Shown here: positions 5,786 through 32,724 of the stretch, one piece after another | How positions within the stretch are numbered: position 1 is the stretch's first letter | How the letters are laid out: every line of letters begins with the position of its first letter | From: Tomocerus qinae | Lineage: Eukaryota > Arthropoda > Collembola > Entomobryomorpha > Tomoceridae | Direction of reading: 5' to 3' | DNA length: 64,000 bases | NCBI GenBank assembly: GCA_020055645.1 | Contig: CM034546.1 | Location: 41,416,001 to 41,480,000, forward strand | Position numbers and translations under genes: made by a program | Notes under the pieces: model-generated | What the model was told of the DNA's origin: nothing | Database searches by the model: none | Seen by the model: only the letters and a program-made list of their open reading frames with translations

Positions 5786-5866
5786 CATGAAGGAGGCTAA
5801 GTTTATATAAAAGTGGTGTCGCTTACCTTACTATTTATTAACCATTGCAAATTATTTATTATGCAT
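5786..5866. repeat. Left part of duplication unit 0 spacer, cut by the palindrome
   Basis: From about 5786 the sequence matches the conserved spacers of the other units (around 45470-45545 and 61555-61630), including the TTTATATAAAAGTGG and CTATTTATTAACCATTGCAA phrases. The match stops at ATGCAT (5861-5866) and resumes at 19811 after the palindromic insertion. Upstream of ~5786 the match to the other units is lost, so the rest of this unit has been replaced or deleted. Confidence 0.75.
5861..5866. repeat. Target-site duplication, left copy (ATGCAT)
   Basis: ATGCAT occurs once in the empty versions of this site (around 45537 and 61627, TTATTATGCATCAAGGG) and twice here, flanking the palindrome. 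Because ATGCAT is itself palindromic, the true duplication could be GC (2 bp), TGCA (4 bp) or ATGCAT (6 bp). Confidence 0.7.
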
Positions 5867-5874
5867 AGTAGTAA

Positions 5875-6290
5875 GGGGACCAGTAAGCCACAACCATACG
5901 CCATCTTGGATTCTAAAAAAGGCTCGAACAGCCACAAGCATAGCCTACGGCTTTCATCAAGCACATACACTAACCTTACTCTCGGATAGTAGTCCTCACC
6001 CTCACTATGCTTGGATAGCCACAACCATAGCCAACGGCACTCCTACACTATCCTAAATCTTATGCTTGGATAGTCACAACCATACCCCGAGGCGGTAACC
6101 GAAATACACTATGCTTGAATAGCCACAACCATAGCCTGCGGCAGTATTTGTAGTACAGACAATAACGTAACTCTTACGCTCGAACACTCACAACCATAGT
6201 ACAATGCATTCATGGCAGTACAGGTACTAACCTATCTATTACACTTGGATAGTAGCAACCATACCCAATGGCAATTTAATATCATTCACA
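5875..6290. repeat. Subterminal tandem repeats, left arm
   Basis: About seven or eight copies of a ~60-70 bp degenerate unit, each with a core close to GATAGCCACAACCATAGCC followed by a variable GC-rich bit such as AACGGC. The cores point the same way. Arrays like this next to transposon ends commonly act as transposase-binding sites. That role is inferred. Confidence 0.75.
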
Positions 6291-8431
6291 ATTTAATGCT
6301 TACATATAATTAACGTGATACAATATAGGTATATCATATTTGCCTATTCATATATGCCTATCTATAAGGGTGATTAATATCTAATTACTATAAAATATAA
6401 TAAATGACAATGCAAATTGGATCTCTTTGAATACTCAATGATAATGATGAAGGCCAATGTGTGTAGACACCACCTTATAATAATATTAATTTTATAATTG
6501 TAATTAAATAAGTACAAAGTGTACACATGATAGTATAAACCAAATTATATTAATTAATTACTATTGATTGTCAATTATTGGTTATTAAGTGTTAAGACGA
6601 ACAACCTATTTTAAAATTTCGCAAGGATTTTGCTAAGAATAAAGTACTGCTCAAGTATAAAACTTTTGTTTGATTAAAGAGACCAATGGTCTGGATTATA
6701 ATTAGTCGGTGGTCAGGCGTTAATTGAAGTCCTTGGCATGCAATAAATTATATTAAATGTTCAAATATTTTACAAACCGCAACAGCAACCGCAACAACCG
6801 CACTATCAACCGCAGAAATGTCATCAAAAACTGTATCAAATACTGTATCAACAGTGTTATTTACAGAATAAACACTTGTTATTTTATTGGGGTTATGTGC
6901 ATTTAGCATAATAATTTTAAAAGTGCACTCAAAAACAAAGTTCTATATACCTGAGACTACATGTGTTTAGGTAATGTACACTGCAATGTTTGGATAGTCA
7001 GAATAGTAGCCCGTGACAATTTATTAATACATCATTGAATGTTTAAATGTATTTTCAAAGTTTGTGTCCGATTATTAGTATATCGCATACCCATCTATAA
7101 GTATTGAATGTCAGTAACGATAACATATAATGAAACGATAAGCTAAACTATGTCGTCCCTGTGAGTACTTGTATTTGATGAACATAATGGTGTGTATCAC
7201 AAAAACATTGTAAACATCTATGTTTATGACTTTACATGTGAGGATAAGTGTAAGTAATGAAGGGACGTGGAAAGGGGTTGAACACAATGGTATGTAGTGG
7301 ACAAGAAGGTACCTGTAAAGATACATTACTACATTTTACAGACATACACGTCGTTTCAGTACTTTAAAATATCCAGGCAATGGAAATAAGTTATTTCCCA
7401 AACTGGAGTACATTTGGAACAAAAGAGTTGCTATTACCTTTAGTCATAAAATCCTTTCTCAGAAAGGGATTTACGTAAAAGCTTTTTCTTATAGGTAATT
7501 TCAACTTACGCACCTTATATTTTAATTCTACGAAGGTCTTTACTAAGAATATATTTGTTATTAACCATATGTGATAATAATTTATTCTCTGAGATAGTAA
7601 TACAAGTGCAGGTCAGCAATTAAACTTGTATGGTTGTACAAAGTCGGTTCTTAGTAAGTTCACACTGTAAGTCTATTCTTAGCTAATTATAAAGATGTGT
7701 GTCAGTTATTAGCTTAATTCTTGTACTTAAATAGGAATTATTATACCGCAATGGGAAATTTTTTATTTTATTTTTTTCCCAATATGTTGCAAATTTATTA
7801 TTGAATACTCGGAAATTTGTAAAAACAGTCGACAGACATGAATAAACACAGACAATTACATAATCTTGTATACAAAAATACTAGACCAACTTCACTAACC
7901 GCACAACTAACCGCAGTAATAGCGTTAGTAAACGTAGTCAAGACGGCGAAAACCACAACATAAATATATGTATAATATTTCAACAGGTTCATTGTCGAAT
8001 AGTACTGAATCTGAGACTGAGTTTGTTCTTATACATAGTAAAACTTACAATTAATAAGGCTACTATGGAAGGGGGTTTAAGACTTGTATACAGCATCAAT
8101 ACAATTCAAAATGTTATTTTCAATACAATAATAAGGATAATCCTTTCCTGAAGAGCTACTTACATATCGTACGTACATTCTAACTTATATTATTTAAAAA
8201 ATTGCGTCAGACGGAGGGTAATCTTTTACCGAAAATACATGATACATTTTATATATGTTCCTACTTATATAGTTTATTTATATTATCGAATGAAGTGGGG
8301 TACTAAGATGTGTAAAATATTTCACTTAAATAGGGGTACTTTGTAAAAATCATCACATTATAACTGGGAAAGTTATCATTACCATCCAGCTTCAAAAGTC
8401 TTCTGGTATAGCTGCCACTATAATTCTCAAT
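6291..8431. other. Left-arm stretch without a recognised gene
   Basis: AT-rich palindrome-arm DNA upstream of the zinc-finger gene. It holds two small clusters of the AACCGC motif (about 6776-6815 and 7898-7918) and short hairpins such as the one near 7450-7475. A short minus-strand open frame crossing one AACCGC cluster (7798-7992) is not supported as a gene. The mirror of this stretch is 17247-19390. Confidence 0.5.
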
Positions 8432-10378
8432 ATGGAAAATTGTCCAATCTGTGGTGTGTATTTAACTAGTAATTTTGAGCAACATTTTAAGGAAACTCAT
8501 CAGTGCCCAACATATTTGAAGCTTAAAGAACCTGGTCGCGGTTCTGGTAAGTGTTTAAACAATATTTCATATATTTTACAAATTTATATCAACTTTGAAA
8601 ACGTGAAAATTATAGGATGTATAACCTAATAAAATTCACCGGATTATATGTTTTCAGGATGTCCTAATAACGATTGTACCAAATGTTTCGAAACAGAAAA
8701 TGATATGAAAGACTGTGTCTACGATGTCAGAGACAGCAGGGATACCATAGAGCTAAATCAGGAAAAGGATGACGATAACAATGAAAACGAAGAGATCCAA
8801 GAATTTAAACAGGAAGTAAAGGAAGGTAGTGACAGACAAGTTCAGGAAATCGAGGTGTTCGACCAGGAAGAAGATCGCACTGACCCAGAAAGCCAAGAAG
8901 GAGATTACTGACCGAGAAAACCGGGAAATTGATGAGATCAACCAGGAAGAAACAGACGATAACGATGAAAATCTTCAGGATGAGGACGATGATTGGGTTA
9001 GTGTTTATAATGGAAATCATGATCAGCAGGTAGATTCAGAGGAAGAATTTGAAGACGACGGATTTGACGAACAATTTGGAAGTGCATACGAGTATGATTT
9101 AGAGGACGGAGATTGGGGAACAGAATTTTGCACAACATTTACAGAAAATATTGACAGTCTAATTTGTATACCACTGCCACAGCTAGGAAATTTAGTTATT
9201 TCTGTTGTCACTTATAGCCTTTATACTGAAGATTTCAATCTTAAAATGACAAGATACAATATTCAAACAATATTTCATATATTTTACAAATTTATATTAA
9301 CTTTGAAAACGTGAAAATTATAGTATGTATAACATAATAAAATACACCGGATTATATATTTTCAGGATGTCATAATAACGATTGTATCAAATGTTTTGAA
9401 ACAGAAAATGATATGAATGGTTGTGTCTACGATGTCAGAGACAGCAGGGATACAATACAGCTAAATCAGGAAAAAGATTACGAAAACAATGGAAACGAAG
9501 AGATCCAAGAATCTAAACAGGAAGTAAGTGAAGGTAGTGACAGACAAATCGAGGTGTTTGACCAGAAAGAAGATCACGCGGACCCAGAAAGCCAGGAAGG
9601 AGATGACACTGTATGTGAAAACCAGGAAATTGATGAGATCAACCAGGAAGAAACAGACGATGACGATGAAAATCTTCAGGATGAGGACGACGAATGGGTT
9701 GGTATCAATAATGAATATCATGATCAGCAGGTCGATTCAGAGGAAGAATTTGAAGACGATGGATTTGACGAACAATTTGAAAGCGCATACGAGTATGATT
9801 TAGAGGATAGAGATTGGGGAACAGAATTTTCGACAACAGTTACAGAATACATTGGCAGTCCAATATGTGTACCACCGCCACAGCTAGGAAATTTAGTTAT
9901 TTCAGTAGTCACTATTAGTCTTTATCCAGAACATTTCGATATTAACATGACAAGGTACAATATTCAAGGTGAGAAACATGAATAATTGGAGTTTACTTGT
10001 AATCCAAATTCAATTTTTTGCATTATTACAGCGATTGACAAATGTAATAACGTAACAGTGCCAGATATTTTTCCATCTGTTGATATTATAATGTTGGATA
10101 TATTTTCAAATTATTCCCATTATTGCGACTTATATCTTCGATATATTAGACATAATCGAACAAATGAATTGCTTGGGATTAGATTATATGTACCTGAGTT
10201 AACAGATGAGAAACCAAGTCTATATATTCTTTCTAACGAATTTGCAGCAGTTATTATTAAGTTAGAATTTGCAGCAGTTAAGTTAGAATTATTTCGAGTG
10301 TATCTTGAGAAAGTTTATTCTCAATCATTTCGTAGATATTCTGCGGATCGCAATCTCGAAAAATGTCCTAATGACTGA
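8432..10378 (+). CDS. Unrecognised spliced gene: C2H2 finger plus acidic region (left arm copy)
   Basis: The best model has three exons, 8432-8546, 9366-9968 and 10032-10378, with GT-AG introns in phase 1, giving 354 residues. Exon 1 encodes a C2H2-type finger (CPIC, then HFKETH; spacing C-x2-C-x10-H-x4-H). Exon 2 adds Cys pairs (CHNNDCIKC) and a strongly acidic Glu/Asp/Gln-rich tract. Exon 3 encodes a hydrophobic/basic C-terminal part. A second, older exon 2 (from 8658) lies upstream. It has an intact acceptor but is frameshifted near 8910 and lacks a donor, so it looks like a dying tandem copy made when part of intron 1 plus exon 2 was duplicated. The finger and acidic tract suggest nucleic-acid or protein binding. 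I know no family with this layout and see no catalytic motif. It reads toward the palindrome centre. Confidence 0.65.
8658..9317 (+). pseudogene. Duplicated, frameshifted exon 2a of the zinc-finger/acidic gene (left arm)
   Basis: The acceptor TTTTCAG precedes it, and it encodes the same Cys-rich then acidic sequence as exon 2b (9366-9968). A small deletion near 8910 shifts the frame. Its 3' end runs straight into a copy of intron 1 lacking the GTAAGT donor, which marks the duplication breakpoint at about 9265-9270. It may be skipped, or used as a truncated terminal exon. Confidence 0.65.
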
Positions 10379-12290
10379 TGGAGCAAACGTTTCTATATCA
10401 TCTTTGTGTCTAGAGTATTGTGATTGCAGACTTTAAAAAGAGTAATGTTGCATGCATATACATTACAGACTACAAATGTGTTAAAACTGTCCAACGCTAA
10501 GAAAGATAATTGTATTGTGTAAATTGTACACAAATTACACAAAATTTTTTAAAATTAATCCAATAACATGTACCAAATAAAAGTATTTCATTTTTTAAAT
10601 GCGGTTATTACTGAGTTTATTTGTACTAAGCCAGAATTCTGCTGTTCTCATAGAAAAGCAGCTGACATATAAAACTTTTCTATGTTCATATTAAAGTAAA
10701 TACTTTTAAAGCTTATCGCCGAGTTTGTTAATTAATTTTACTAGTTAATAAGCCTAACATAACCTATTAACATAAGTAAGTTTAATTTAAAAATATAAAA
10801 CACTCAAATGAATGGTCAAATGTGAGTTAGTGTAATTTATTGTCCGTTTTTGTGCTGAATATAATATAATATGCAGAATTGCAATTAAATATAGTCTGGT
10901 ATCGAATAAAAATATTGATAGAAAGTTTATAAAGTTTTAAATTGATTGTATAATTATGGAAGCTTTAAGTAATAGTATTTTATTTTTTAAATATAAATGA
11001 ATTACTTTTATTTACATAAAATACTCTAAAAACAAGAACAGTTTTAGAACTGCTGAAGACATAGTTCGTCAAAAACCTGGTATTTTAACAGTAGAAGCCT
11101 AATTAACAAAACTAAATCAAAATAATTGTCGGTTTAGCATTTTGAAAATTGTATTAGAAATCCCTCAAGTGACATACTTTTTTCACATCTACTCAAATCG
11201 AACCAACAAGAGGACATTTCATTCCAATGCAAGTGACAGCTTGCTAAACCGACAATTATTATCAATACATAGTAAAAAAGTTGTAGACATAATAATATTA
11301 CTTACTTGATGAACAGAATGTTTATGATGACTGTCAAAAGTACGAAAACGATTTCTTTGATGTCTGATTACAACCAAATGATGTAGGTTTAGGAAAATAT
11401 CACAATGTAATGAACAAAAACGATTAGGGTACTTTGCTGTTATTATTGAATTTGCTTGTATTAAGCCAAAGTCGTATTGTTGTCCCAGCAGAAAAACAGC
11501 TGATATTTATAATAACACAGAAGAAAACACAGGAGAATAACACAGGTACAAAGAAAAGATTGAAAGGAGCTAGTTGAACTGCGGTTAAAACGATATAGTT
11601 TTTGATCATTTCGTGGATGCAATGTGTCCAGACAATTTTTTGAATGTTCAAACATTTGATTGATTAAAAGTAGAAAAAAGGCTATAAATGGCTCAGGTGT
11701 TGAAAGATGATGGGATTATTACTCTAACATTTGGTCATAAAGACATAAAGTTGTATGAAGAAAACTTCAAAAGAATTGATTTTGTATAATGTCATATTTG
11801 ATGTAAAAACTTGTAAACTTTGAATGCCCGCCAATTTGCTGCATACTTTATTGATTTGTTTTACTAGTTATGTAACATAACCTAATGTAACTTAATTTAG
11901 GTTAATTTAAATGCTGAAAAATGAAAATGAATTAACATTATAAGTTAAAGTAATCCATCGTTCTCTAATGTAATTTAATGCATTGAAATTGTATTCTGAA
12001 TATAAATTATGATGGTGAATGAAAATAAAATTAACATTTTTCTATATAAATCTGTTTCGTATGCATATATTTATTTTAAACTAAGAAAAACTACTTTCAT
12101 TTACAAATAAAAAGATTTTGAAGCGCTAAAAAGTTTGCAAAATTTTACAAATAATCAAGCTGCTAAGCACAGAAAAACTGCGGTTTTCAAACTATCAACA
12201 TTATTAGACATATAAATATCCACTTAAAGCCATTGACTCAGTGTTATCTTAGTTACATATTGCATAAATAACGGAATAAATCATTCATAT
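10379..12290. other. Left-arm non-coding stretch with internal duplication
   Basis: No gene. The segments around 10600-10900 and 11430-12010 are diverged copies of each other. Both carry a TACTAAGCCAGAATT / TATTAAGCCAAAGTC phrase, an AAAGCAGCTGA / AAACAGCTGA phrase, then TTTTACTAGTTA and CATAACCTA blocks in the same order. A small MITE lies between them (11121-11260). The mirror is 13412-15299. Confidence 0.5.
11121..11260. mobile_element. Nested 140-bp MITE (left arm)
   Basis: Perfect 19-bp terminal inverted repeats, AATAATTGTCGGTTTAGCA and its inverse. ATCAA lies just outside both ends and may be the target duplication. The identical insertion is in the right arm (14443-14582). It therefore predates the palindrome duplication or was copied by gene conversion. 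Confidence 0.7.
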
Positions 12291-12348
12291 CATGCTTAAA
12301 TTTTGGGAAATTAAAATAAAATTCACACTTTTACATATACACACGGAC

Positions 12349-12553
12349 CGCAGTATCAACCGCAGTAACCGCAGTATCAGCCGCAGTAACCGCAGTAACC
12401 GCAGTATCAACCGCAATAACCGCAGCATCAACCGCACTAACCGCAGTATCAACCGCACTAACCGCAGTATCAACCGCACTAACCGCAGTATCAACCGCAC
12501 TAACCGCAGTATAAACCGCAATAACAATCGCGTCAACCGCAGAATTAACCGCA
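12349..12553. repeat. AACCGC tandem array (21-bp unit), left arm
   Basis: Tandem repeats built from AACCGCAGTATC and AACCGCACT, giving a 21-bp unit TATCAACCGCACTAACCGCAG with variants. Both strands stay open in several frames because the unit is a multiple of three and stop-poor, so the Asn/Arg/Ser and Ala/Val/Asp open frames here are almost certainly not genes. The right arm has the same array two units shorter (13190-13353). Confidence 0.85.
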
Positions 12554-12823
12554 ATGTTATTATTCATTATTTCGCAATCTTATTATATATTTAACGTATG
12601 TATCTCAACAATCATTTACGTAAAACTTACTGATGGAATGATCTCTATGAAAAATTTATCCTCTTAACAAACTTAATGATTCAATAGATCAGGCTCGCAA
12701 TTTCTAACGTAAGACCTTAATAACGTAATTCCTATCGTGCGACTTCACTTACGCAGTATTATACATACTTAATCTATAAACCACATTAATCTTTGAAAGA
12801 TTTTAAATCTGCCGTTGTTACAC

Positions 12824-12921
12824 CGTTGACGCAGATGACAAGAGAGCTAACAGAAAATGTCGGAGACGTTTCTCCGAAATTTTCTGTGTCTCACAAGCTC
12901 TCTTGGTCATCTGTCTCAAAA
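12824..12921. repeat. Palindrome centre: cruciform-forming spacer
   Basis: Between the last perfectly paired bases of the arms (12823 and 12922) is a 98-bp spacer that is itself an imperfect palindrome: GCAGATGACAAGAGAGCT on the left pairs with AGCTCTCTTGGTCATCTG on the right. The innermost stem is CGGAGA / TCTCCG with loop CGTT (12861-12876). The arms therefore fold with almost no loop. Confidence 0.85.
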
Positions 12922-13189
12922 GTGTAACAACGGCAGATTTAAAATCTTTCAAAGATTAATGTGGTTTATAGATTAAGTATGTATAATACTGCGTAAGTGA
13001 AGTCGCACGATAGGAATTACGTTATTAAGGTCTTACGTTAGAAATTGCGAGCCAGATCTATTGAATCATTAAGTTTGTTAAGAGGATAAATTTTTCATAG
13101 AGATCATTCCATCAGTAAGTTTTACGTAAATGATTGTTGAGATACATACGTTAAATATATAATAAGATTGCGAAATAATGAATAATAAC

Positions 13190-13353
13190 ATTGCGGTTAA
13201 TTCTGCGGTTGACGCGATTGTTATTGCGGTTTATACTGCGGTTAGTGCGGTTGATACTGCGGTTAGTGCGGTTGACGCTGCGGTTATTGCGGTTGATACT
13301 GCGGTTACTGCGGTTACTGCGGCTGATACTGCGGTTACTGCGGTTGATACTGC
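13190..13353. repeat. AACCGC tandem array (21-bp unit), right arm
   Basis: Inverse copy of the left array, read here as GCGGTT repeats, shorter by 42 bp (two units). This is the largest length difference between the arms and is the kind expected from replication slippage. Confidence 0.85.
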
Positions 13354-14442
13354 GGTCCGTGTGTATATGTAAAAGTGTGAATTTTATTTTAATTTCCCAA
13401 AATTTAAGCATGATATGAATGATTTATTCCGTTATTTATGCAATATGTAACTAAGATAACACTGAGTCAATGGCTTTAAGTGGATATTTATATGTCTAAT
13501 AATGTTGATAGTTTGAAAACCGCAGTTTTTCTGTGCTTAGCAGCTTGATTATTTGTAAAATTTTGCAAACTTTTTTAGCGCTTCAAAATCTTTTATTTGT
13601 AAATGAAAGTAGTTTTTCTTAGTTTAAAATAAATATATGCATACGAAACAGATTTATATAGAAAAATGTTAATTTTATTTTCATTCACCATCATAATTTA
13701 TATTCAGAATACAATTTCAATGCATTAAATTACATTAGAGAACGATGGATTACTTTAACTTATAATGTTAATTCATTTTCATTTTTCAGCATTTAAATTA
13801 ACCTAAATTAAGTTACATTAGGTTATGTTACATAACTAGTAAAACAAATCAATAAAGTATGCAGCAAATTGGCGGGCATTCAAAGTTTACAAGTTTTTAC
13901 ATCAAATATGACATTATACAAAATCAATTCTTTTGAAGTTTTCTTCATACAACTTTATGTCTTTATGACCAAATGTTAGAGTAATAATCCCATCATCTTT
14001 CAACACCTGAGCCATTTATAGCCTTTTTTCTACTTTTAATCAATCAAATGTTTGAACATTCAAAAAATTGTCTGGACACATTGCATCCACGAAATGATCA
14101 AAAACTATATCGTTTTAACCGCAGTTCAACTAGCTCCTTTCAATCTTTTCTTTGTACCTGTGTTATTCTCCTGTGTTTTCTTCTGTGTTATTATAAATAT
14201 CAGCTGTTTTTCTGCTGGGACAACAATACGACTTTGGCTTAATACAAGCAAATTCAATAATAACAGCAAAGTACCCTAATCGTTTTTGTTCATTACATTG
14301 TGATATTTTCCTAAACCTACATCATTTGGTTGTAATCAGACATCAAAGAAATCGTTTTCGTACTTTTGACAGTCATCATAAACATTCTGTTCATCAAGTA
14401 AGTAATATTATTATGTCTACAACTTTTTTACTATGTATTGAT

Positions 14443-14582
14443 AATAATTGTCGGTTTAGCAAGCTGTCACTTGCATTGGAATGAAATGTCCTCTTGTTGG
14501 TTCGATTTGAGTAGATGTGAAAAAAGTATGTCACTTGAGGGATTTCTAATACAATTTTCAAAATGCTAAACCGACAATTATT
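14443..14582. mobile_element. Nested 140-bp MITE (right arm)
   Basis: Mirror of the left-arm MITE, with the same 19-bp terminal repeats and ATCAA-type flanks. Confidence 0.7.
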
Positions 14583-15299
14583 TTGATTTAGTTTTGTTAA
14601 TTAGGCTTCTACTGTTAAAATACCAGGTTTTAGACGAACTATGTCTTCAGCAGTTCTAAAACTGTTCTTGTTCAAATTCATTTATATTTAAAAAATAAAA
14701 TACTATTACTTAAAGCTTCCATAATTATACAATCAATTTAAAACTTTATAAACTTTCTATCAATATTTTTATTCGATACCAGACTATATTTAATTGCAAT
14801 TCTGCATATTATATTATATTCAGCACAAAAACGGACAATAAATTACACTAACTCACATTTGACCATTCATTTGAGTGTTTTATATTTTTAAATTAAACTT
14901 ACTTATGTTAATAGGTTATGTTAGGCTTATTAACTAGTAAAATTAATTAACAAACTCGGCGATAAGCTTTAAAAGTATTTACTTTAATATGAACATAGAA
15001 AAGTTTTATATGTCAGCTGCTTTTCTATGAGAACAGCAGAATTCTGGCTTAGTACAAATAAACTCAGTAATAACCGCATTTAAAAAATGAAATACTTTTA
15101 TTTGGTACATGTTATTGGATTAATTTTAAAAAATTTTGTGTAATTTGTGTACAATTTACACAATACAATTATCTTTCTTAGCGTTGGACAGTTTTAACAC
15201 ATTTGTAGTCTGTAATGTATATGCATGCAACATTACTCTTTTTAAAGTCTGCAATCACAATACTCTAGACACAAAGATGATATAGAAACGTTTGCTCCA

Positions 15300-17246
15300 T
15301 CAGTCATTAGGACATTTTTCGAGATTGCGATCCGCAGAATATCTACGAAATGATTGAGAATAAACTTTCTCAAGATACACTCGAAATAATTCTAACTTAA
15401 CTGCTGCAAATTCTAACTTAATAATAACTGCTGCAAATTCGTTAGAAAGAATATATAGACTTGGTTTCTCATCTGTTAACTCAGGTACATATAATCTAAT
15501 CCCAAGCAATTCATTTGTTCGATTACGTCTAATATATCGAAGATATAAGTCGCAATAATGGGAATAATTTGAAAATATATCCAACATTATAATATCAACA
15601 GATGGAAAAATATCTGGCACTGTTACGTTATTACATTTGTCAATCGCTGTAATAATGCAAAAAATTGAATTTGGATTACAAGTAAACTCCAATTATTCAT
15701 GTTTCTCACCTTGAATATTGTACCTTGTCATGTTAATATCGAAATGTTCTGGATAAAGACTAATAGTGACTACTGAAATAACTAAATTTCCTAGCTGTGG
15801 CGGTGGTACACATATTGGACTGCCAATGTATTCTGTAACTGTTGTCGAAAATTCTGTTCCCCAATCTCTATCCTCTAAATCATACTCGTATGCGCTTTCA
15901 AATTGTTCGTCAAATCCATCGTCTTCAAATTCTTCCTCTGAATCGACCTGCTGATCATGATATTCATTATTGATACCAACCCATTCGTCGTCCTCATCCT
16001 GAAGATTTTCATCGTCATCGTCTGTTTCTTCCTGGTTGATCTCATCAATTTCCTGGTTTTCACATACAGTGTCATCTCCTTCCTGGCTTTCTGGGTCCGC
16101 GTGATCTTCTTTCTGGTCAAACACCTCGATTTGTCTGTCACTACCTTCACTTACTTCCTGTTTAGATTCTTGGATCTCTTCGTTTCCATTGTTTTCGTAA
16201 TCTTTTTCCTGATTTAGCTGTATTGTATCCCTGCTGTCTCTGACATCGTAGACACAACCATTCATATCATTTTCTGTTTCAAAACATTTGATACAATCGT
16301 TATTATGACATCCTGAAAATATATAATCCGGTGTATTTTATTATGTTATACATACTATAATTTTCACGTTTTCAAAGTTAATATAAATTTGTAAAATATA
16401 TGAAATATTGTTTGAATATTGTATCTTGTCATTTTAAGATTGAAATCTTCAGTATAAAGGCTATAAGTGACAACAGAAATAACTAAATTTCCTAGCTGTG
16501 GCAGTGGTATACAAATTAGACTGTCAATATTTTCTGTAAATGTTGTGCAAAATTCTGTTCCCCAATCTCCGTCCTCTAAATCATACTCGTATGCACTTCC
16601 AAATTGTTCGTCAAATCCGTCGTCTTCAAATTCTTCCTCTGAATCTACCTGCTGATCATGATTTCCATTATAAACACTAACCCAATCATCGTCCTCATCC
16701 TGAAGATTTTCATCGTTATCGTCTGTTTCTTCCTGGTTGATCTCATCAATTTCCCGGTTTTCTCGGTCAGTAATCTCCTTCTTGGCTTTCTGGGTCAGTG
16801 CGATCTTCTTCCTGGTCGAACACCTCGATTTCCTGAACTTGTCTGTCACTACCTTCCTTTACTTCCTGTTTAAATTCTTGGATCTCTTCGTTTTCATTGT
16901 TATCGTCATCCTTTTCCTGATTTAGCTCTATGGTATCCCTGCTGTCTCTGACATCGTAGACACAGTCTTTCATATCATTTTCTGTTTCGAAACATTTGGT
17001 ACAATCGTTATTAGGACATCCTGAAAACATATAATCCGGTGAATTTTATTAGGTTATACATCCTATAATTTTCACGTTTTCAAAGTTGATATAAATTTGT
17101 AAAATATATGAAATATTGTTTAAACACTTACCAGAACCGCGACCAGGTTCTTTAAGCTTCAAATATGTTGGGCACTGATGAGTTTCCTTAAAATGTTGCT
17201 CAAAATTACTAGTTAAATACACACCACAGATTGGACAATTTTCCAT
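15300..17246 (-). CDS. Unrecognised spliced gene: C2H2 finger plus acidic region (right arm copy)
   Basis: Mirror of the left-arm gene. Exons by reflection are 17132-17246, 15710-16312 and 15300-15646 on the minus strand, with the same splice sites and a 354-residue product. By eye it differs from the left copy by one residue (His to Arg in exon 3, codon at about 15525-15527). The frameshifted spare exon 2a is also duplicated (about 16361-17020). The two copies converge on the palindrome centre, so read-through transcripts from either side would be self-complementary. Near-identity of coding and non-coding parts alike points to recent duplication or arm-to-arm gene conversion, not to selection on the protein. 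Confidence 0.65.
16361..17020 (-). pseudogene. Duplicated, frameshifted exon 2a (right arm)
   Basis: Mirror of the left-arm spare exon, with the same frameshift and the same missing donor. The exon duplication and its decay therefore happened before the arms became identical. Confidence 0.6.
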
Positions 17247-19389
17247 ATTGAGAATTATAGTGGCAGCTATACCAGAAGACTTTTGAAGCTGGATGGTAAT
17301 GATAACTTTCCCAGTTATAATGTGATGATTTTTACAAAGTACCCCTATTTAAGTGAAATATTTTACACATCTTAGTACCCCACTTCATTCGATAATATAA
17401 ATAAACTATATAAGTAGGAACATATATAAAATGTATCATGTATTTTCGGTAAAAGATTACCCTCCGTCTGACGCAATTTTTTAAATAATATAAGTTAGAA
17501 TGTACGTACGATATGTAAGTAGCTCTTCAGAAAAGGATTATCCTTATTATTGTATTGAAAATAACATTTTGAATTGTATTGATGCTGTATACAAGTCTTA
17601 AACCCCTTCCATAGTAGCCTTATTAATTGTAAGTTTTACTATGTATAAGAACAAACTCAGTCTCAGATTCAGTACTATTCGACAATGAACCTGTTGAAAT
17701 ATTATACATATATTTATGTTGTGGTTTTCGCCGTCTTGACTACGTTTACTAACGCTATTACTGCGGTTAGTTGTGCGGTTAGTGAAGTTGGTCTAGTATT
17801 TTTGTATACAAGATTATGTAATTGTCTGTGTTTATTCATGTCTGTCGACTGTTTTTACAAATTTCCGAGTATTCAATAATAAATTTGCAACATATTGGGA
17901 AAAAAATAAAATAAAAAATTTCCCATTGCGGTATAATAATTCCTATTTAAGTACAAGAATTAAGCTAATAACTGACACACATCTTTATAATTAGCTAAGA
18001 ATAGACTTACAGTGTGAACTTACTAAGAACCGACTTTGTACAACCATACAAGTTTAATTGCTGACCTGCACTTGTATTACTATCTCAGAGAATAAATTAT
18101 TATCACATATGGTTAATAACAAATATATTCTTAGTAAAGACCTTCGTAGAATTAAAATATAAGGTGCGTAAGTTGAAATTACCTATAAGAAAAAGCTTTT
18201 ACGTAAATCCCTTTCTGAGAAAGGATTTTATGACTAAAGGTAATAGCAACTCTTTTGTTCCAAATGTACTCCAGTTTGGGAAATAACTTATTTCCATTGC
18301 CTGGATATTTTAAAGTACTGAAACGACGTGTATGTCTGTAAAATGTAGTAATGTATCTTTACAGGTACCTTCTTGTCCACTACATACCATTGTGTTCAAC
18401 CCCTTTCCACGTCCCTTCATTACTTACACTTATCCTCACATGTAAAGTCATAAACATAGATGTTTACAATGTTTTTGTGATACACACCATTATGTTCATC
18501 AAATACAAGTACTCACAGGGACGACATAGTTTAGCTTATCGTTTCATTATATGTTATCGTTACTGACATTCAATACTTATAGATGGGTATGCGATATACT
18601 AATAATCGGACACAAACTTTGAAAATACATTTAAACATTCAATGATGTATTAATAAATTGTCACGGGCTACTATTCTGACTATCCAAACATTGCAGTGTA
18701 CATTACCTAAACACATGTAGTCTCAGGTATATAGAACTTTGTTTTTGAGTGCACTTTTAAAATTATTATGCTAAATGCACATAACCCCAATAAAATAACA
18801 AGTGTTTATTCTGTAAATAACACTGTTGATACAGTATTTGATACAGTTTTTGATGACATTTCTGCGGTTGATAGTGCGGTTGTTGCGGTTGCTGTTGCGG
18901 TTTGTAAAATATTTGAACATTTAATATAATTTATTGCATGCCAAGGACTTCAATTAACGCCTGACCACCGACTAATTATAATCCAGACCATTGGTCTCTT
19001 TAATCAAACAAAAGTTTTATACTTGAGCAGTACTTTATTCTTAGCAAAATCCTTGCGAAATTTTAAAATAGGTTGTTCGTCTTAACACTTAATAACCAAT
19101 AATTGACAATCAATAGTAATTAATTAATATAATTTGGTTTATACTATCATGTGTACACTTTGTACTTATTTAATTACAATTATAAAATTAATATTATTAT
19201 AAGGTGGTGTCTACACACATTGGCCTTCATCATTATCATTGAGTATTCAAAGAGATCCAATTTGCATTGTCATTTATTATATTTTATAGTAATTAGATAT
19301 TAATCACCCTTATAGATAGGCATATATGAATAGGCAAATATGATATACCTATATTGTATCACGTTAATTATATGTAAGCATTAAATTGT
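17247..19389. other. Right-arm stretch without a recognised gene
   Basis: Reverse complement of 6291-8431. It carries the GCGGTT clusters at about 17760-17780 and 18863-18902. The small open frame 17685-17879 starts with a hydrophobic stretch but runs through the GCGGTT motif, and I do not support it as a gene. Confidence 0.5.
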
Positions 19390-19802
19390 GAATGATATTA
19401 AATTGCCATTGGGTATGGTTGCTACTATCCAAGTGTAATAGATAGGTTAGTACCTGTACTGCCATGAATGCATTGTACTATGGTTGTGAGTGTTCGAGCG
19501 TAAGAGTTACGTTATTGTCTGTACTACAAATACTGCCGCAGGCTATGGTTGTGGCTATTCAAGCATAGTGTATTTCGGTTACCGCCTCGGGGTATGGTTG
19601 TGACTATCCAAGCATAAGATTTAGGATAGTGTAGGAGTGCCGTTGGCTATGGTTGTGGCTATCCAAGCATAGTGAGGGTGAGGACTACTATCCGAGAGTA
19701 AGGTTAGTGTATGTGCTTGATGAAAGCCGTAGGCTATGGTTGTGGCTGTTCGAGCCTTTTTTAGAATCCAAGATGGCGTATGGTTGTGGCTTACTGGTCC
19801 CC
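19390..19802. repeat. Subterminal tandem repeats, right arm
   Basis: Inverse of the left subterminal array. Cores read GGCTATGGTTGTGGCTATC at ~60-70 bp spacing up to the GGTCCCCTTACTACT terminus. Confidence 0.75.
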
Positions 19803-19810
19803 TTACTACT

Positions 19811-19816
19811 ATGCAT
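19811..19816. repeat. Target-site duplication, right copy (ATGCAT)
   Basis: Second copy of the ATGCAT that flanks the palindromic element. The host sequence continues CAAGGGAATTCCAG exactly as in the empty sites. Confidence 0.7.
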
Positions 19817-21968: not shown

Positions 21969-23074
21969 CAGTGTACAAAATTTACCACTTTTTAGGCTTT
22001 TTTACCCTCACAGTGGTAAAAATACACTTAATGGTAAAAATGCATTTAATGGTAAAAATGGTAAATATTAGCGATTGATTAGACAGATTAGTACAAATAC
22101 ACTAGCCATCCTAAAATATACGTTTTGTTTTAAAACTTTATTCTCAGTAGTAGTAGTATGTGTTTATTGATTGTTTGGCAAGCAGTCACAATCATATCAA
22201 ATTACAAGGCATTTCATTGACAGAATTACTGTACTTAATAATATAACGCCTATAATTGCAACTAAATTTTATATGTTTTGGAAACTAGCTATAAGAACAC
22301 GAAACTTTATATCTACCTATTAATTAAGATTAGAAATATTAATATTATTTAGTAAACACTTAAATTCAATTCTGTCAATGAAATGCCTTGTAATTTGATA
22401 TGATTGTGACTGCTTGCCAAACAATCAATAAACACATACTACTACTACTACTAAAACTTTATTCTCAATGAAACATTTCCAATGAGCCCAATAATTAATC
22501 AAATTAATCTTATTCATTTGATTGTACACCGAATGTTAACCAAGATTTCATTTGGTTTCACCCATTTAAAATTGAGATTAACGTGTCAATTTAATTGCAA
22601 TTAATTTCTCAATCGGCAAGGGTTGTTAGTGCTCCCCTTGGTTGAATCCAATTCTGAATGCTAAGCACCTAATATTACATAGCGCCTTAATCAACTAAAT
22701 TAATCATATTTATTTGATTGCACCCCAAAAGTTATAAAAAATGAAGAAGTATTTGGTATCACCCATTTAAAATTGATGCTAATTGAATTGTAATTAATAT
22801 CTCAATCGGCAAGGGTTGTTGTGCATTGGTTGAATCCTACTCGGTTTAATGAACACTTACCAATTTGTGACAACAATGATCATCTGCTAAGCCATTTCAT
22901 ACTTTGGCACCAAATTTTATTCAAAATCGAAACACGAAATTTAAATGAAACTATTTTTACCATTTATACCATTAAAAACCACTTACCACTACATTTAAGG
23001 TAGTGGTATTTAACGTTAAATACCATTAAAAACCACTTACCACTGGTAAGTGGTAATTGGTATTTTGTACACTG
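21969..23074. mobile_element. hAT-type non-autonomous element, 1.1 kb, with nested LINE piece
   Basis: Termini CAGTGTACAAAA and TTTTGTACACTG are perfect inverted repeats, flanked by ATTCGGAT on both sides (21961-21968 and 23075-23082). Unit 3 has the matching uninterrupted stretch near 62255. Inside are repeated TGGTAAAAATG / ACCACTTACCACT motifs near both ends, two diverged copies of a CTCAATCGGCAAGGGTTGTT segment, and a nested LINE-derived insertion at 22147. No coding sequence. Confidence 0.88.
22147..22452. mobile_element. Hairpin of two LINE 3' ends, 15-bp target duplication
   Basis: It begins GTAGTAGTAGTATGTG and ends ACATACTACTACTAC. About 90 bp at each end (TTTATTGATTGTTTGGCAAG and onward) are inverted copies, with a ~120-bp non-repeated middle. 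The 15-base AAAACTTTATTCTCA precedes (22132-22146) and follows (22453-22467) it. The inverted ends match the 3' end seen again at 51195, so this looks like one retrotransposition event yielding a tail-out inverted dimer. Confidence 0.8.
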
Positions 23075-23082
23075 ATTCGGAT

Positions 23083-23641
23083 CTCTCAACGTCGTACCAT
23101 GTGTAGAGCTAAATTTACATCGATTTTTAGTATTTGAACCTAGCCCACACAGACCACGGCAGGAGATGTGTCTGATTTTGCCTACTTTCCTATTCACACT
23201 TACTATTATGCAAAGCAAGTTTAAACTCATTATCTGAGTCCGTTCTTAAATTAGTTAATCAACGGACAGACCTATTGAACATTGCTATAAATCAGCTCCG
23301 CTACTAATAAATAAATATTTTATGTAATAAATATCGATAATATTGTATTGGACCTCCAATCATACATTGATATCATTTTAAGAAAAGTTTGGATTGTGTC
23401 TTGCAGATCATGGTATCATGAAATTTTAATCACCACTTGCGGCAATCCATAAATGTATATATTATTTACACCAAGGAGGAAATACGGGTGCAATACATAA
23501 ATAGAGAAGCAAAATGGGCACTTTTGAAGTCAGTGTTTACTCTTCTCCTGTTGCTCCAATGTAGTATTCCTGAGAGGCTAATAAACAAAAGAGTTGCACA
23601 GACACGTAAAATTTATAATAATTCAAAACGAAAAATCAGAC
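23083..23641. promoter_or_regulatory. Upstream region of the unit 1 IR gene
   Basis: Non-coding and conserved with 45880-46211 and 62250-62902. It includes the ACACCAAGG(A/G)GGAAATACG phrase and repeated short open stretches that are frameshifted between units, so they are not coding. Promoter elements could not be pinpointed. Confidence 0.4.
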
Positions 23642-26065
23642 ATGGCTTACATATCTCTGGGAGTAATTTTAATTATTATTCAACCATGTTGGGGTTGGAC
23701 ATTAAAAGAAGTTGTTCATCTTGAAAAAGAGTGCTATATCAATTTTATTTTCCAACCAAAACCATTTTATAAAGTTTTGGAAGAACCGTTGTATAATGAA
23801 TTACAGCAACTGGATATTCCATTTGCATTTACAAAACTGAAATTTGATGGAGAAGACAAAGAGTGCAATTTAAAACATTTTGTACTGACTGTTCTCCCAA
23901 ACGAATTCGATCCTAATCGGACAAAGCATCTGCCATTTTATTCAAAATGCAGCAAGACATTTGGTAAAGGAAATGATACATTCAGACTATCAACTCCCAA
24001 TTTAATCAGCCGTTTTATCTGTTATGTAAATATCGCATTTAATTTCAATCCCACAAATCCACATGATACACATTTTATTCATCATTTGAGCGAAGCCTTT
24101 TCTGACGAAGTTGACCTAACTAGAAAAATTACTGAATACGAAGATTATGAAGTCAAAAAGCGTCTTTATAACCTAGTGGAATATTCCTGCATTTACATGT
24201 TAGTCGACAAAGAAAACCTTAAGTTGACAAAATCGCATTCGGATATAGTTGCCCACAACAATTACTGGTTAAAGTTCTGGTTTGTATTATCCTTGGCAGA
24301 TGAAGATGAGAGAATTATATATTTAATTTTGCCTGATTTTAATGGCATAAATTATTTGTTTACTATGTTACCAATAATTTGTTTCGATGTACTTTTTCGT
24401 GGGACTTTGCTAAACAACGTAATTGAAAGAAACGAAGAAAAATTCGTGATGATTTATCAAGAAAAGGATTATGCAGTGGAAAAGTTAAAAAACTTCAGAG
24501 ATTATTGCGGACCACCGTTGAAGGATGTATATTTTACAAACTATGCTTTGGACGGCCGTAAAAGTTTGATTCTTTCTATAGTTTCTATCCTTTTCGAAAA
24601 ATCACCAAATTTTACTATAGCCATTGATGATAGAGTTGGAATTTGTACAAAGAGGAGCGCAAACTCGGTTGATTTTCATTTCCACAATTTTCAAAATGAT
24701 CCAGATAGCTTTGCCTATTTTGGAAATCCCTACGTGACGCTTATTCAAACGAATGAAGAATCCTTTAATTTCATTTCCTGTGTAGTCTTAGAAGACGAGA
24801 GTCTCTCTTTCTATGCCTACATTCGACCATTTAAACTTTATGCGTGGATAGGGATCTTAGGTTCACTTCTCCCTGTACTTGCTTTTGTCCATGGAGTATT
24901 ATATTTCAAAAGGGAAGCCAGTATTCCATTTCTTATGATTTCCTATGCATATATATTGGAGGTCAGTTATTCTTTGCCAAAAAAGGTGAATACTACTCTC
25001 TGGATCAAGTTGGTCATCGGTCCACTACTGCTCATGTTGATTGTGTTAACCAACGGGTACAAGGGAATTGTCATCACAGATCTATTGCAACCCCGTCCAG
25101 TCAAACAAATCGAATCCATTGAACAATTGGTAAACCTTACAGATATTACTGCTCTTGGAGAAATCAGAGCTGCTAGTGAATTGAATCCGTTTGAAATTGG
25201 TTTAGAAGAACAAGGCAACATACTAACTTGTTACTATTACGATTTTAAAGCTCTTTCTCCGTACCCTAATAATTCATCTTATTTCCAAGAGAAATGGGAC
25301 CAACATTATTTCGTATTTGCAAACGAAAACAAGACGATTATCGAAAATGCAGTTCAGTACTACAACACAATCAATACACCGGGCTTACCGGAAGGATATT
25401 ACCTTGATAGGACATTTACCTTTCGTAAATTAATATATTCAATTTTAGAAGACACTCAAGATACTTTTAAATATTATAAAGTGATGGAAAAGATCAGGAA
25501 CATCATTCGATATCCTCCTGGAATTCCTTACACGAACACTCCTCAGCAATGGCTAGCAAAATGTAATAACTCTGTGCTAATTTTGTCCAGTTCTAGTCTC
25601 CATCGACTTCTTAATGACTCCCACTGGAATCCTGAAAGCGGGGGAGTAAAACCAATTCACAAATTATATCGTGGATCAGAAGAAAACAAATTTTTATCCA
25701 TTGCAACCTATACTGGATTTAAGTCGGATAGATTTCCAATACTTACTCCCTTTCTACGACGAAATTTGTTTGTTTTAAGTCACTCAGGACTTATTAATTT
25801 ATGGTTGGAACATTACAAAGCATGGAACTACACCGAGTGCAAAACATGCTGGGTAAGAACTCCCGCAAGACCTGTGACATTTTACAATTCCAATATTGCT
25901 ACTTTGTTTTATTTATTTTTATCGTCCGGCCCAGCATACATGGCGGCGTTTCTCTGGGAAAATCGAGTATTTCTTAAACAAATATTTGATGCTGGGCTTT
26001 ATTACATTTACAGACATTATATCTTTATAATCGCCTTGGTAAATAACAAATTGGGTGCCAATTAA
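23642..26065 (+). CDS. Divergent ionotropic receptor-like protein, unit 1 (807 aa)
   Basis: Single-exon gene. The ATG was chosen because it starts a signal peptide (ISLGVILIIIQPCWG) and is conserved in units 2 and 3; the frame is open a further 16 codons upstream without an ATG. About 370 extracellular residues follow, then a membrane segment near 401-423 (AWIGILGSLLPVLAFVHGVLYF), a short pore-like hydrophobic piece near 432-448, a second segment near 458-478 (LVIGPLLLMLIVL) running into NGYKGIVITDLLQPRP, a second ligand-binding-like lobe, and a last membrane segment near 757-777. This is the iGluR/IR topology, and the sequence after the second segment resembles the YxAxLxSxLTxP stretch of IRs. 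The classical glutamate-binding Arg was not found, as is usual in divergent IRs. Likely a chemosensory ligand-gated channel; the ligand is unknown. Confidence 0.8.
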   Translation: MAYISLGVILIIIQPCWGWTLKEVVHLEKECYINFIFQPKPFYKVLEEPLYNELQQLDIPFAFTKLKFDGEDKECNLKHFVLTVLPNEFDPNRTKHLPFYSKCSKTFGKGNDTFRLSTPNLISRFICYVNIAFNFNPTNPHDTHFIHHLSEAFSDEVDLTRKITEYEDYEVKKRLYNLVEYSCIYMLVDKENLKLTKSHSDIVAHNNYWLKFWFVLSLADEDERIIYLILPDFNGINYLFTMLPIICFDVLFRGTLLNNVIERNEEKFVMIYQEKDYAVEKLKNFRDYCGPPLKDVYFTNYALDGRKSLILSIVSILFEKSPNFTIAIDDRVGICTKRSANSVDFHFHNFQNDPDSFAYFGNPYVTLIQTNEESFNFISCVVLEDESLSFYAYIRPFKLYAWIGILGSLLPVLAFVHGVLYFKREASIPFLMISYAYILEVSYSLPKKVNTTLWIKLVIGPLLLMLIVLTNGYKGIVITDLLQPRPVKQIESIEQLVNLTDITALGEIRAASELNPFEIGLEEQGNILTCYYYDFKALSPYPNNSSYFQEKWDQHYFVFANENKTIIENAVQYYNTINTPGLPEGYYLDRTFTFRKLIYSILEDTQDTFKYYKVMEKIRNIIRYPPGIPYTNTPQQWLAKCNNSVLILSSSSLHRLLNDSHWNPESGGVKPIHKLYRGSEENKFLSIATYTGFKSDRFPILTPFLRRNLFVLSHSGLINLWLEHYKAWNYTECKTCWVRTPARPVTFYNSNIATLFYLFLSSGPAYMAAFLWENRVFLKQIFDAGLYYIYRHYIFIIALVNNKLGAN

Positions 26066-30275: not shown

Positions 30276-31613
30276 TTAAAGGTTATAGTAATTAGGTTTT
30301 GTAGACATCCGATTTTTAACTATGTGTTGTCTCACTGCTTTATCAAATACATTAAAGTTATCACTGTTTTGTATACAATTAGGTAACAAATTCCACATTT
30401 GAGCGCTTCGGTAACAAAATGCCTTTCTTCCGAATTCTGTTTTAAAATCGGGGACCACTAGGTTGAGGCAACTTCTCAAAGCTCGCAATGGTTCCTGTTT
30501 TTTGTAGTCGCTTTCAATTTCGTGTCGCAGAAAAGGTTGTTCTCGAATAACATGTATGTATATAAATTGCAAAGTACTAAGATTACACTTTTCTTTAACA
30601 GTCATTAAATTGGATATTTCTAAGGCATCATATGTTTGCTTGGTGTTACATAATTTGGTTTTACCAGAGATGTTTTTAGCTATGTTAAAAATTATTGCAT
30701 CAAGTTTGTTAATTTTTGTAGCGCATATTTTTCCCCATATTGGCAAGCAGTAGTCTAATATCGATGTTACTAGTGAGTTAATGAACATTTTCGTTTGATG
30801 TTTTGTAAAAAACTTTTTATATTTAAATATTAACTTGGTTCTTGCCTTCATTTTGGCTATTACATTGTCAGTATGTGTATTCCAATTTAATTTTTCGTCT
30901 AATATAATACCTAAATATATAAAGGTACTAACTTGTTCAATTATGTTATCACCAACTATTAGGATTATTGGACTAGGTTTCTTAACATAGGTAGGACAAA
31001 ATATCATAAATTTAGTTTTGCTAGCATTTAATTCTAGTCCGTTTATTTTACCCCACTGTATTATTGCGTTTAAATCAATCTGCACAAAAGCTTCCGCTTC
31101 CTTGATATTTTTTGATGAGAAGTACAGGGCCACGTCATCAGCGTAAAGTGTACATTTACAGAAGATTGGCACATTGGGCAGATCGTTAATATATATACTA
31201 AATAAAAGGCCTGAGAGGCAACTTCCTTGGGGTGTCCCCCTTGGTAGGGTTTGGCTCTCAGAAAATGTTTCAGAAAATTTATCTTCTAATTTCACTTTGA
31301 TGCTTCTGTCAGTCAGGTATGATAAAATCACTTTTTGCAAGTTCCCGCCTATTCCAACACTTTCTAATTTCTCTCCAAAGTTATGTTTAAAAATCGAATC
31401 GAATGCACGCTTATAATCCAGAAATACAACTACCGTGCACTGTCGCTTTTCTCCAGCCTTGAAGATGTCATTTGTTACACGGGCTATTGCAGAGAAAGTT
31501 GAAAATCCTCTACGGAAACCGTGCTGGAAACGCGAGAGTGTATCTGCACTTTGAATGCTCCTTTTTAAATGGCTGTATATGACTCTTTCAATTATTTTTG
31601 ACACTGAGCACAA
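30276..31613 (-). pseudogene. LINE reverse transcriptase segment (445 codons)
   Basis: It holds the RT palm motifs: FLDYKRAFDSI (residues 64-74), LPRGTPQGS (123-131) and the catalytic YADD (157-160), followed by the thumb and a C-terminal tail common to Jockey/CR1-type elements. The start is not a real initiation site; the frame continues from the endonuclease segment after a frame shift near 31614-31775. The core catalytic residues are intact, so the break is fairly recent. Confidence 0.85.
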
Positions 31614-31774
31614 TATGGAAATTGGCCTGTAGTTGTTGGCATCAGATTTTTCCCCTTTTCCTTTATAAAGTGGTAGTACTATTGCTTCTTTGTATATTTT
31701 GGGGAACGCGTTTTCTTTTATTATACGATTTATTAATACGGTCAGTATAGGTGAAATTTCTTCAGCAATAAGTT

Positions 31775-32635
31775 TTAAAAAATCGAAGGTATTCCATCAC
31801 TTCCTGCGGGTTTATTACATGGGTTGTAGTTAATGACATCTAAAACAGTTTTCACATTAACATCTATGGTGGTGATACATGGCGTTGGTTTATGAAAAAT
31901 GTCTTCCTTATTAGCTTCGCCTTTTTTAAAAATATCATTATCTGGTACAATGAATTTAGAGCAGAGAGTGTCACAGATTTCTTTTGTTGTCGTTATTTTT
32001 TCATCATTATTAACCAAAAATGGAATTTTGATTTTTGTCTTACTGTGTCTCCCGGTTTCTTGATTAAATTGGTTCCATCCTGCTTTACTTTGGTTATCAC
32101 TTTCGTCTGTTTCTTTAGCATAGTGTTGAGCTTTCAGCTTATTTTTAAGTCGGTTTATTTTGTTTCTTAGCTTTTTATACTCGGGACATCCTTTCCGAAG
32201 TTTATTTTTTGCTGTGCATAATGTTAGATATTCGTTAGTTAACCACTTGAGTCTAGTAGATTTCACTTTCACTGATTTGCTAGGAATGGCCAGATTGTGT
32301 ATAAAGGTGATTATGTAGTTGAACATGTAGAATGCCTGATCTATGTTCGTGCACATACTAAGAATCCACCATGGTGCGGATTGGACTAGATTCTTTAATT
32401 TTTTCTTATCTGCTTTCCCATATAGCCATATAGTTTTCATAATTTCACTGTTTTGATTTCGGGCTTTCTTTCGTACTAGGTATATTAATTCATGGTCTGC
32501 AATTGCCACCGAAATCACTCCACTGTTTGCAACTTTTCCAGTTTGGGTGCACATAATAATATCTATTAATGTCTTCGTATTTTCAGTAATACGTGTTGGT
32601 TTTTTGACAATTTGGCTAATATTATGTTGAGACAT
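31775..32635 (-). pseudogene. LINE endonuclease C-terminus and linker
   Basis: It includes the TLIDIIM and ISDHELIYL-like (here VAIADHELIYL) end of an APE-type endonuclease, where the SDH motif is partly altered to ADH, then a Lys-rich linker leading to the reverse transcriptase. It is separated by frame shifts from both neighbours. Confidence 0.75.
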
Positions 32636-32724
32636 AACAGATTGTAAATGTTTTAAATCGTTGCTGTATTTCAGAAAATTTATGTTTAGATCTCCTATTA
32701 TATAAAGTTCACTGTCCGCAGCTT

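Follow-up and report, generated by a model that had tools for sequence, protein, structure and literature searches.

Polintons (Mavericks, polintoviruses) typically produce a 6-bp duplication of their target and have a terminus beginning with 5'-AG. They are described as encoding a protein-primed DNA polymerase (PolB) and a DDE integrase (PMC6431247). Further points of comparison are the Ginger elements (PMC2836005), the bidnaviruses, which are argued to have taken PolB and terminal inverted repeats (TIRs) from a Polinton and form no hairpins of the parvovirus type (PMC4061559), and Foldback elements with long TIRs (PMC4168063; PMC3688188; PMC4079207; PMC3169594), the longest Galileo copy in D. 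willistoni having 9,021 bp (PMC4168063). Here we analyse a 64,000-nucleotide stretch of the genome of the collembolan Tomocerus qinae (GenBank assembly GCA_020055645.1, contig CM034546.1, positions 41,416,001 to 41,480,000; hereafter the window), which contains a palindrome of 13,944 bp at positions 5867-19810. Based on its terminus, its 6-bp duplication and arm sequence that matches the PolB end of Polintons in the same genome, this element is identified as a non-autonomous, palindromic Polinton (Maverick) derivative and as one copy of a family. The family consists of real, mobile Polinton derivatives that are palindromic, carry a hairpin at their centre and are non-autonomous. Among the matches listed, titles and abstract openings of the open-licence literature describe no palindromic Polintons or Mavericks.

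Self-comparison of the window pairs positions 5861-13356 with 19816-12389 as an inverted repeat of 98.4% identity over 7,508 columns, with the mirror point at 12868/12869. When the element is aligned with its own reverse complement and the central ~70 columns are excluded, the outer arms show 8 substitutions over 6,871 aligned columns, plus five indels of 1, 25, 1, 1 and 42 bp (70 gap columns). The original prediction, made from the letters of the window, had counted a few substitutions and three indels, which is close. It had also described a duplicated ATGCAT around a site that is empty in two paralogous spacers, and both are seen on comparison: the hexamer stands at both borders, and the spacers near 45,540 and 61,630 read TTATTATGCATCAAGGGAATTCC and are free of the insert. 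As ATGCAT is itself palindromic, this locus alone is compatible with a duplication of 6, 4 or 2 bp. We take it to be 6 bp because nine other palindromes carry unrelated 6-bp duplications (ATTTTA, ATGAAT, TATGTG, CATTAT, AAGAAC, CTAAAT, GGTAAG, CTTGGA and ATTGTG), and with this length fixed the terminus of the element is AGTAGT. The borders of the palindrome coincide exactly with the target duplication, which is unexpected for a fold-back created during assembly. The palindrome in the window is confirmed as a real mobile element.

To find the other copies, the terminal 300 bp of the window element (W) were used as query against the host genome (334 Mb, 115 contigs). At least 65 matches were obtained, many of them as inverted pairs about 6-17 kb apart. 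All 15 inverted pairs listed, the window included, were examined, and the unpaired matches in part. Twelve pairs are palindromes and three (E3, E6 and E7) are Polintons with TIRs of about 170-250 bp and target duplications of 6, 6 and 5 bp, respectively. Open reading frames (ORFs) were inspected in E3 and E6; E7 is 97% identical to E6 over its full length. E6 matches the Pfam family DNA_pol_B_2 above the cut-off (1.2e-12) and rve (2.1e-7) and Pox_A32 (1.1e-4) just under it, so that Pfam matches cover the ATPase-like ORF, while capsid and protease were recognised by eye only. In the first 45 bp the window element and the Polinton E3 differ at one position (AGTAGTAAGG / AGTAGTAGGG). Exact 6-bp target duplications flank 10 of the 12 palindromes, all of different sequence; the palindrome E8 has about 1.6 kb extra in one arm. 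Same-terminus copies at other loci, each with a duplication of 4-6 bp, had been named as support for an element, and the nine palindromes besides W with exactly 6 bp provide it.

Ten palindromes (W, E1, E2, E4, E8, E9 and E11-E14) were compared singly with E6, considering matches above 100 or 150 columns. In all ten the arms match the PolB end of E6, running from the terminus towards PolB, and outside the terminal ~316 bp no match to the other end of E6 was seen. Several also match the array of AACCGC repeats in E6 (about 6560-6714). Most of the PolB region is retained in E11 and E12, at about 88% identity. In E11 the frames measure 1203 and 254 amino acids (aa) in one arm, where an insert interrupts them, and 1150 and 182 aa in the other; E12 has frames of 437, 659 and 254 aa in one arm and no frame of 150 aa or more in the other (L029, nearly all of the arm). 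The window element and its lineage hold relics of PolB only. The palindromes are almost certainly Polinton-derived and have spread as palindromes. The family unit is about 3-8 kb of Polinton terminus, PolB-end sequence and one half of a conserved imperfect hairpin, arranged as a head-to-head inverted dimer. A Polinton-sized element turned into an inverted dimer, one of the readings offered originally, was therefore right in kind. The suggestion of a new superfamily was rejected in view of the Polinton terminus, the 6-bp duplication and the PolB-end arms: the same-terminus relatives in this genome are Polintons.

Further support for spread of the palindromic form comes from the lineage of the window element. 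W, E1, E4, E5, E9 and E10 share 9.8-13.9 kb pairwise, and a tree built from these twelve arms joins both arms of an element as sisters in all six cases (support 0.98-1.0). Between elements, arm identity is 85-99%. Because the arms within each element are sisters and the elements differ, it is the palindromic form itself that has spread. In every core-bearing palindrome the arms are alike and the centres differ: in E14, for example, the 2,818 outer columns (6 gap columns) are free of mismatches, against 7 in 63 (7 gaps) at the centre. The outer arms of W, E1, E4, E9, E11 and E14 show 0-17 mismatches in all. When changes are polarised by another element, the left and right arms of E5, E12 and E13 have 18/186, 207/19 and 63/20, respectively, and the worse arm contains many 1-bp deletions; E8 gives 283/32 with arms that are not colinear. 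The excess in the E5 right arm (L017 and L018), the E12 left arm (L029) and the E13 left arm (L031) comprises substitutions and 1-bp deletions, with C>T on one strand and without CpG preference. Base-calling error in inverted repeats is a known nanopore effect, and the excess in these three elements looks like such sequencing error, although this is unproven and it could be biology. Since either may apply, no clock was used, and arm divergence was dropped as a measure of insertion age.

The centre of the palindrome, described originally as cruciform-forming, is an imperfect hairpin with a folding energy as single-stranded DNA of -51.2 kcal/mol compared to a mean of -13.8 for 200 shuffles (z -14.3). 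This imperfect hairpin recurs at the centre of 11 of the 12 palindromes, E2 being without it. Within it lies a 63-bp core with a mean identity of 92.2% among the 11 elements, against 51-64% in the flanking bins; 42 of the 63 columns are invariant, and a one-sided 7-nt bulge and mismatches recur across elements. In 9 of the 11 the core sits exactly on the axis and the sequence is symmetric in register on both sides up to it. The dimer junction thus carries a conserved imperfect palindrome, with E2 and, by position, E9 and E10 as exceptions. The core was not found in E2, E3, E6 and E7, where E2, E6 and E7 give only half-core matches with 7 errors.

A genome search with the central 161 bp yielded 40 matches, counted as 30 places, of which 22 were examined and 8 left unread. 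Seventeen of the 22 are palindromic (the 11 elements, L038-L042 and L046). L047 is old and degraded, and an arm is present on one side only in L043, L044, L045 and, judged by eye, in L051. Of the eight unread places, seven lie between inverted matches to the gene carried on the arms. In L043-L045 homology ends roughly 11-16 nt beyond the tip (by eye), in each case followed by AGGT. We take the single-arm copies as products of breakage or opening at the hairpin, and not as proof of a hairpin-ended form. Past the tip, two of these three copies carry TTAGG, the insect telomere repeat.

Taken as a whole, these data are probably best explained by palindromic Polinton derivatives that are copied via a self-complementary hairpin with the help of Polinton enzymes. 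We give hairpin copying of the inverted dimers itself an even chance, and with it we infer a free hairpin form, a role of the core and a route that would equalise the arms. PolB would begin protein-primed synthesis at the AGTAGT end, and the displaced self-complementary strand would snap into a hairpin, an all-stem version of the panhandle intermediate of adenoviruses. Copying via the central hairpin would regenerate the inverted dimer, and the arms would stay alike through repair within the stem or through self-templated extension there. The integrase of intact Polintons would then insert the dimer by its two identical ends, which could serve both PolB and integrase, and the imperfect core would be kept as a cis-acting turn-around or hairpin-end signal. 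More tentatively, and with the odds somewhat against it, the Polinton-derived replicon may exist as linear DNA with two kinds of end, one protein-primed and the other closed by a hairpin. In that case the 14-kb palindrome would be its integrated inverted dimer, the core would act as a hairpin telomere or turn-around signal, and arm identity would be re-established with every cycle. Elements like E11 and E12, whose arms contain PolB, would represent minimal palindromes that copy themselves and borrow integration only, or descendants of such palindromes.

Several observations weigh against copying through a hairpin or against the uniformity of the family. The proposal rests on integrated copies, the only form visible in genome sequence. 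E2 and E10 have inverted flanks in place of a duplication, and E2 has a 2.1-kb non-palindromic centre without the core. Symmetry at the core of E10 extends over no more than ~59 bp. In E9 (L023 and L024) core and axis are about 42 bp apart and a second copy of the core, partial and inverted, is present, which gives the impression that copying continued beyond the tip. The outer arms of E5 (211/5439 mismatches), E12 (240/6521), E13 (88/5885) and E8 (48/3031) are not near-identical, and no clear 6-bp duplication was seen at L043-L045. Moreover, chromosomal gene conversion, as between the arms of Y-chromosome palindromes, could likewise keep the arms alike. It would replace hairpin copying in these Polinton-derived palindromes, with the centre escaping conversion and so retaining its old mismatches; the observed pattern of like arms and unlike centres would equally follow, and insertion ages could not be fixed. 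The core, however, does more than escape conversion: its conservation between elements (92%) exceeds that of its flanks (51-64%), and conversion by itself leaves unexplained that this core is also central in E8 and E14, where the arms have little in common with W apart from about 0.9 kb. We regard gene conversion in place of hairpin copying as rather unlikely. Similar doubts attach to the idea that the core is kept for a reason other than replication, whether because it ends transcription from both directions, forms a hairpin in RNA or lets the host tolerate the palindrome. The arm genes do read inward to the core from both sides, and greater stability is expected of an imperfect palindrome centre than of a perfect one; but stability by itself would not fix the same letters and bulge in 11 elements, and no Rfam family matched anywhere in the window.

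The remaining explanations carry much less weight. Ordinary Polintons might have inserted and then been converted on the spot into immobile palindromes, one end being copied twice during gap repair. The target duplication would remain, TIR extension by gap repair is proposed for Galileo (PMC4168063), and E2, with Polinton-like arms and no core, may be such a case. For the family this is very unlikely, as the window lineage shares 9.8-13.9 kb at six loci and independent events would not give the same centre at 30 places. An assembly artefact is hardly conceivable: fold-back reads can create false palindromes, the one-arm error pattern suggests noisy reads, and E2 and E10, with their inverted flanks on small contigs, are the most doubtful copies, but for 10 of 12 palindromes the borders coincide with duplications, the paralogues have an empty site and the asymmetric core recurs at many loci. 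Equally remote is the giant foldback that the original prediction suggested first, taken here as a Foldback element from a cut-and-paste superfamily (P/Galileo or Mutator). Its shape fits, with long, internally repetitive inverted arms, and a 9,021-bp Galileo copy with TIRs of 4.2-4.7 kb is on record (PMC4168063). Duplication length (6 bp here against 7-10 bp in the Foldback papers) and ancestry (same-terminus relatives that encode PolB) do not fit, and this idea was dropped after the genome search with the terminus.

As predicted, each arm bears a gene. Splice signals predict a 354-aa gene in both arms (Table 1); both copies point inward, toward the core, and their predicted proteins differ by one residue. 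Exon 2 and its intron are duplicated in tandem in the left arm (8554-9967), with copies that are 88.7% identical and one of them frame-broken. The exon 2 duplicates differ at 19/199 first, 16/200 second and 29/201 third codon positions; the intron differs less (6/104), so selection on exon 2 is not settled by codon positions. A search of the host genome with the arm gene gave 107 matches. Exon 1 matches one place each in the Polintons E6 and E7 and forms inverted pairs at many loci, while exons 2-3 match other ORFs weakly (28-34% identity). The arm gene may thus combine a first exon from the PolB end with captured exons. Three of the weakly matching ORFs (L035, L036 and L037), of 359 to >490 aa, are distant kin of exons 2-3 in a multi-copy family and match no Pfam family above the cut-off. 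Ratios of nonsynonymous to synonymous changes of 0.39-0.42 against E1 (150 codons) and 0.64-0.65 against E13 (264-267 codons), both from alignments with large or frame-breaking gaps, hint at selection on the arm gene. The 354-aa protein had no relative in the protein database, which also missed an ordinary gene of the window, none among viral contigs or phage records, and nothing above the cut-off in PDB or Pfam.

A six-frame Pfam scan of the left arm of the window element likewise gave nothing above the cut-off: no retroviral-type integrase, no packaging ATPase, cysteine protease or capsid gene, and no P or Mutator transposase was recognised. The earlier statement that no transposase is recognisable is therefore true of this copy, and because its integrase is not recognised the element is classed as a derivative rather than an autonomous Polinton. 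The subterminal repeats number 14 in the window, all within the two element ends, where 0.09 would be expected by chance. The motif AACCGCA, a possible protein-binding site, has 48 occurrences inside the palindrome and a single one in the remaining window. A 140-bp stretch at 11121-11260, nested in the arm, resembles a miniature inverted-repeat transposable element (MITE) with perfect 19-bp inverted ends.

Table 1. Features of the palindromic element, in order of position in the window.
Feature	Position	Strand	Basis
Left target-site duplication ATGCAT	5861..5866	.	self-comparison, empty sites; 6 bp from other copies
Left arm, terminus AGTAGTAAGGGGACC up to mirror point	5867..12868	+	self-alignment
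Seven subterminal repeats (GRWYAGYCACAACCATA, <=2 mismatches), left end	5882..6263	+	motif count
Arm gene exon 1, C2H2-like finger, left arm	8432..8546	+	predicted from splice signals; genome matches
Extra tandem copy of intron and exon 2, frame-broken	8554..9266	+	self-comparison
Arm gene exon 2 (acidic), left arm	9366..9968	+	predicted
Arm gene exon 3 with stop, left arm	10032..10378	+	predicted; gene total 354 aa
Relic of Polinton PolB 3' part, left arm	11322..11899	+	71% to E6 9606-8988
AACCGC-type 21-bp repeat array, left arm	12347..12553	+	78% to E6 6589-6714 in part
Central imperfect hairpin	12807..12938	.	self-alignment, folding
63-bp conserved asymmetric core on axis	12841..12903	.	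comparison of elements
Right arm	12869..19810	-	self-alignment
AACCGC-type repeat array, right arm	13192..13356	-	sequence repeats
Arm gene exon 3, right arm	15300..15646	-	offsets from left arm; genome matches
Arm gene exon 2, right arm	15710..16312	-	offsets from left arm; genome matches
Arm gene exon 1, right arm	17132..17246	-	offsets from left arm; genome matches
Seven subterminal repeats, right end	19414..19795	-	motif count
Right target-site duplication ATGCAT	19811..19816	.	self-comparison, empty sites

Elsewhere in the window, an array of ~820-aa intronless ORFs (23594-26065, 46212-48632 and 62655-64000), whose spacers supply the empty sites, had no Pfam match above the cut-off; by eye we take the ORFs to be ionotropic-receptor-like. 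Intronless chemoreceptor arrays are described in PMC6175461. Retroelement-like ORFs at 30276-34074 (-) match reverse transcriptase (RVT_1, 2.5e-27) and a PHD finger (1.4e-8), and a 315-aa ORF at 34498-35445 (+) has a 2OG-Fe(II) oxygenase match just under the cut-off. Tandem repeats of about 340 bp occupy 36486-38381, and a MITE-like sequence at 22146-22449 consists of a perfect 82-bp inverted repeat with a 140-bp spacer.

Long near-perfect palindromes are normally unstable. In this one genome the central core is common to 17 verified long palindromes, and the lineage includes members that have spread, which provides a natural set for studying how genomes tolerate palindromes. Such elements are easily mis-assembled or mis-sequenced. 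If the hairpin reading is true, it would join Polintons to hairpin-ended replicons, and the mode of replication would be testable from genome data.

With Foldback elements (Galileo copy 112, Tetris, Tm1) the window element shares very long, internally repetitive inverted arms and a non-autonomous state, whereas those elements have 7-10 bp duplications and affinity to P or Mutator (PMC4168063; PMC4079207; PMC3169594). With Polintons it has in common the terminus on its terminal inverted repeats, the 6-bp duplication and the PolB-end sequence, and relatives in the same genome have PolB and integrase-like ORFs. It differs in being an inverted dimer of the PolB end with a conserved central hairpin, in arms of ~7 kb rather than the short TIRs of E3, E6 and E7, and in that integrase, capsid and ATPase were not recognised in the window copy. 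Symmetric defective adenovirus genomes and their panhandle are likewise one-end inverted dimers yielded by a protein-primed replicon, but are not known to form a lineage that is integrated, inherited and conserved at its centre. Parvovirus dimer junctions, self-complementary adeno-associated virus genomes, poxvirus concatemer junctions and the clothespin plasmids of Fusarium resemble the element as inverted dimers round an imperfect hairpin or as linear DNA with one hairpin end; in the window element, by contrast, the other end is a Polinton terminus, and no Rep nickase, resolvase or reverse transcriptase was recognised in the arm. The parvovirus dimer junction, with its asymmetric bubble, is the closest working parallel.

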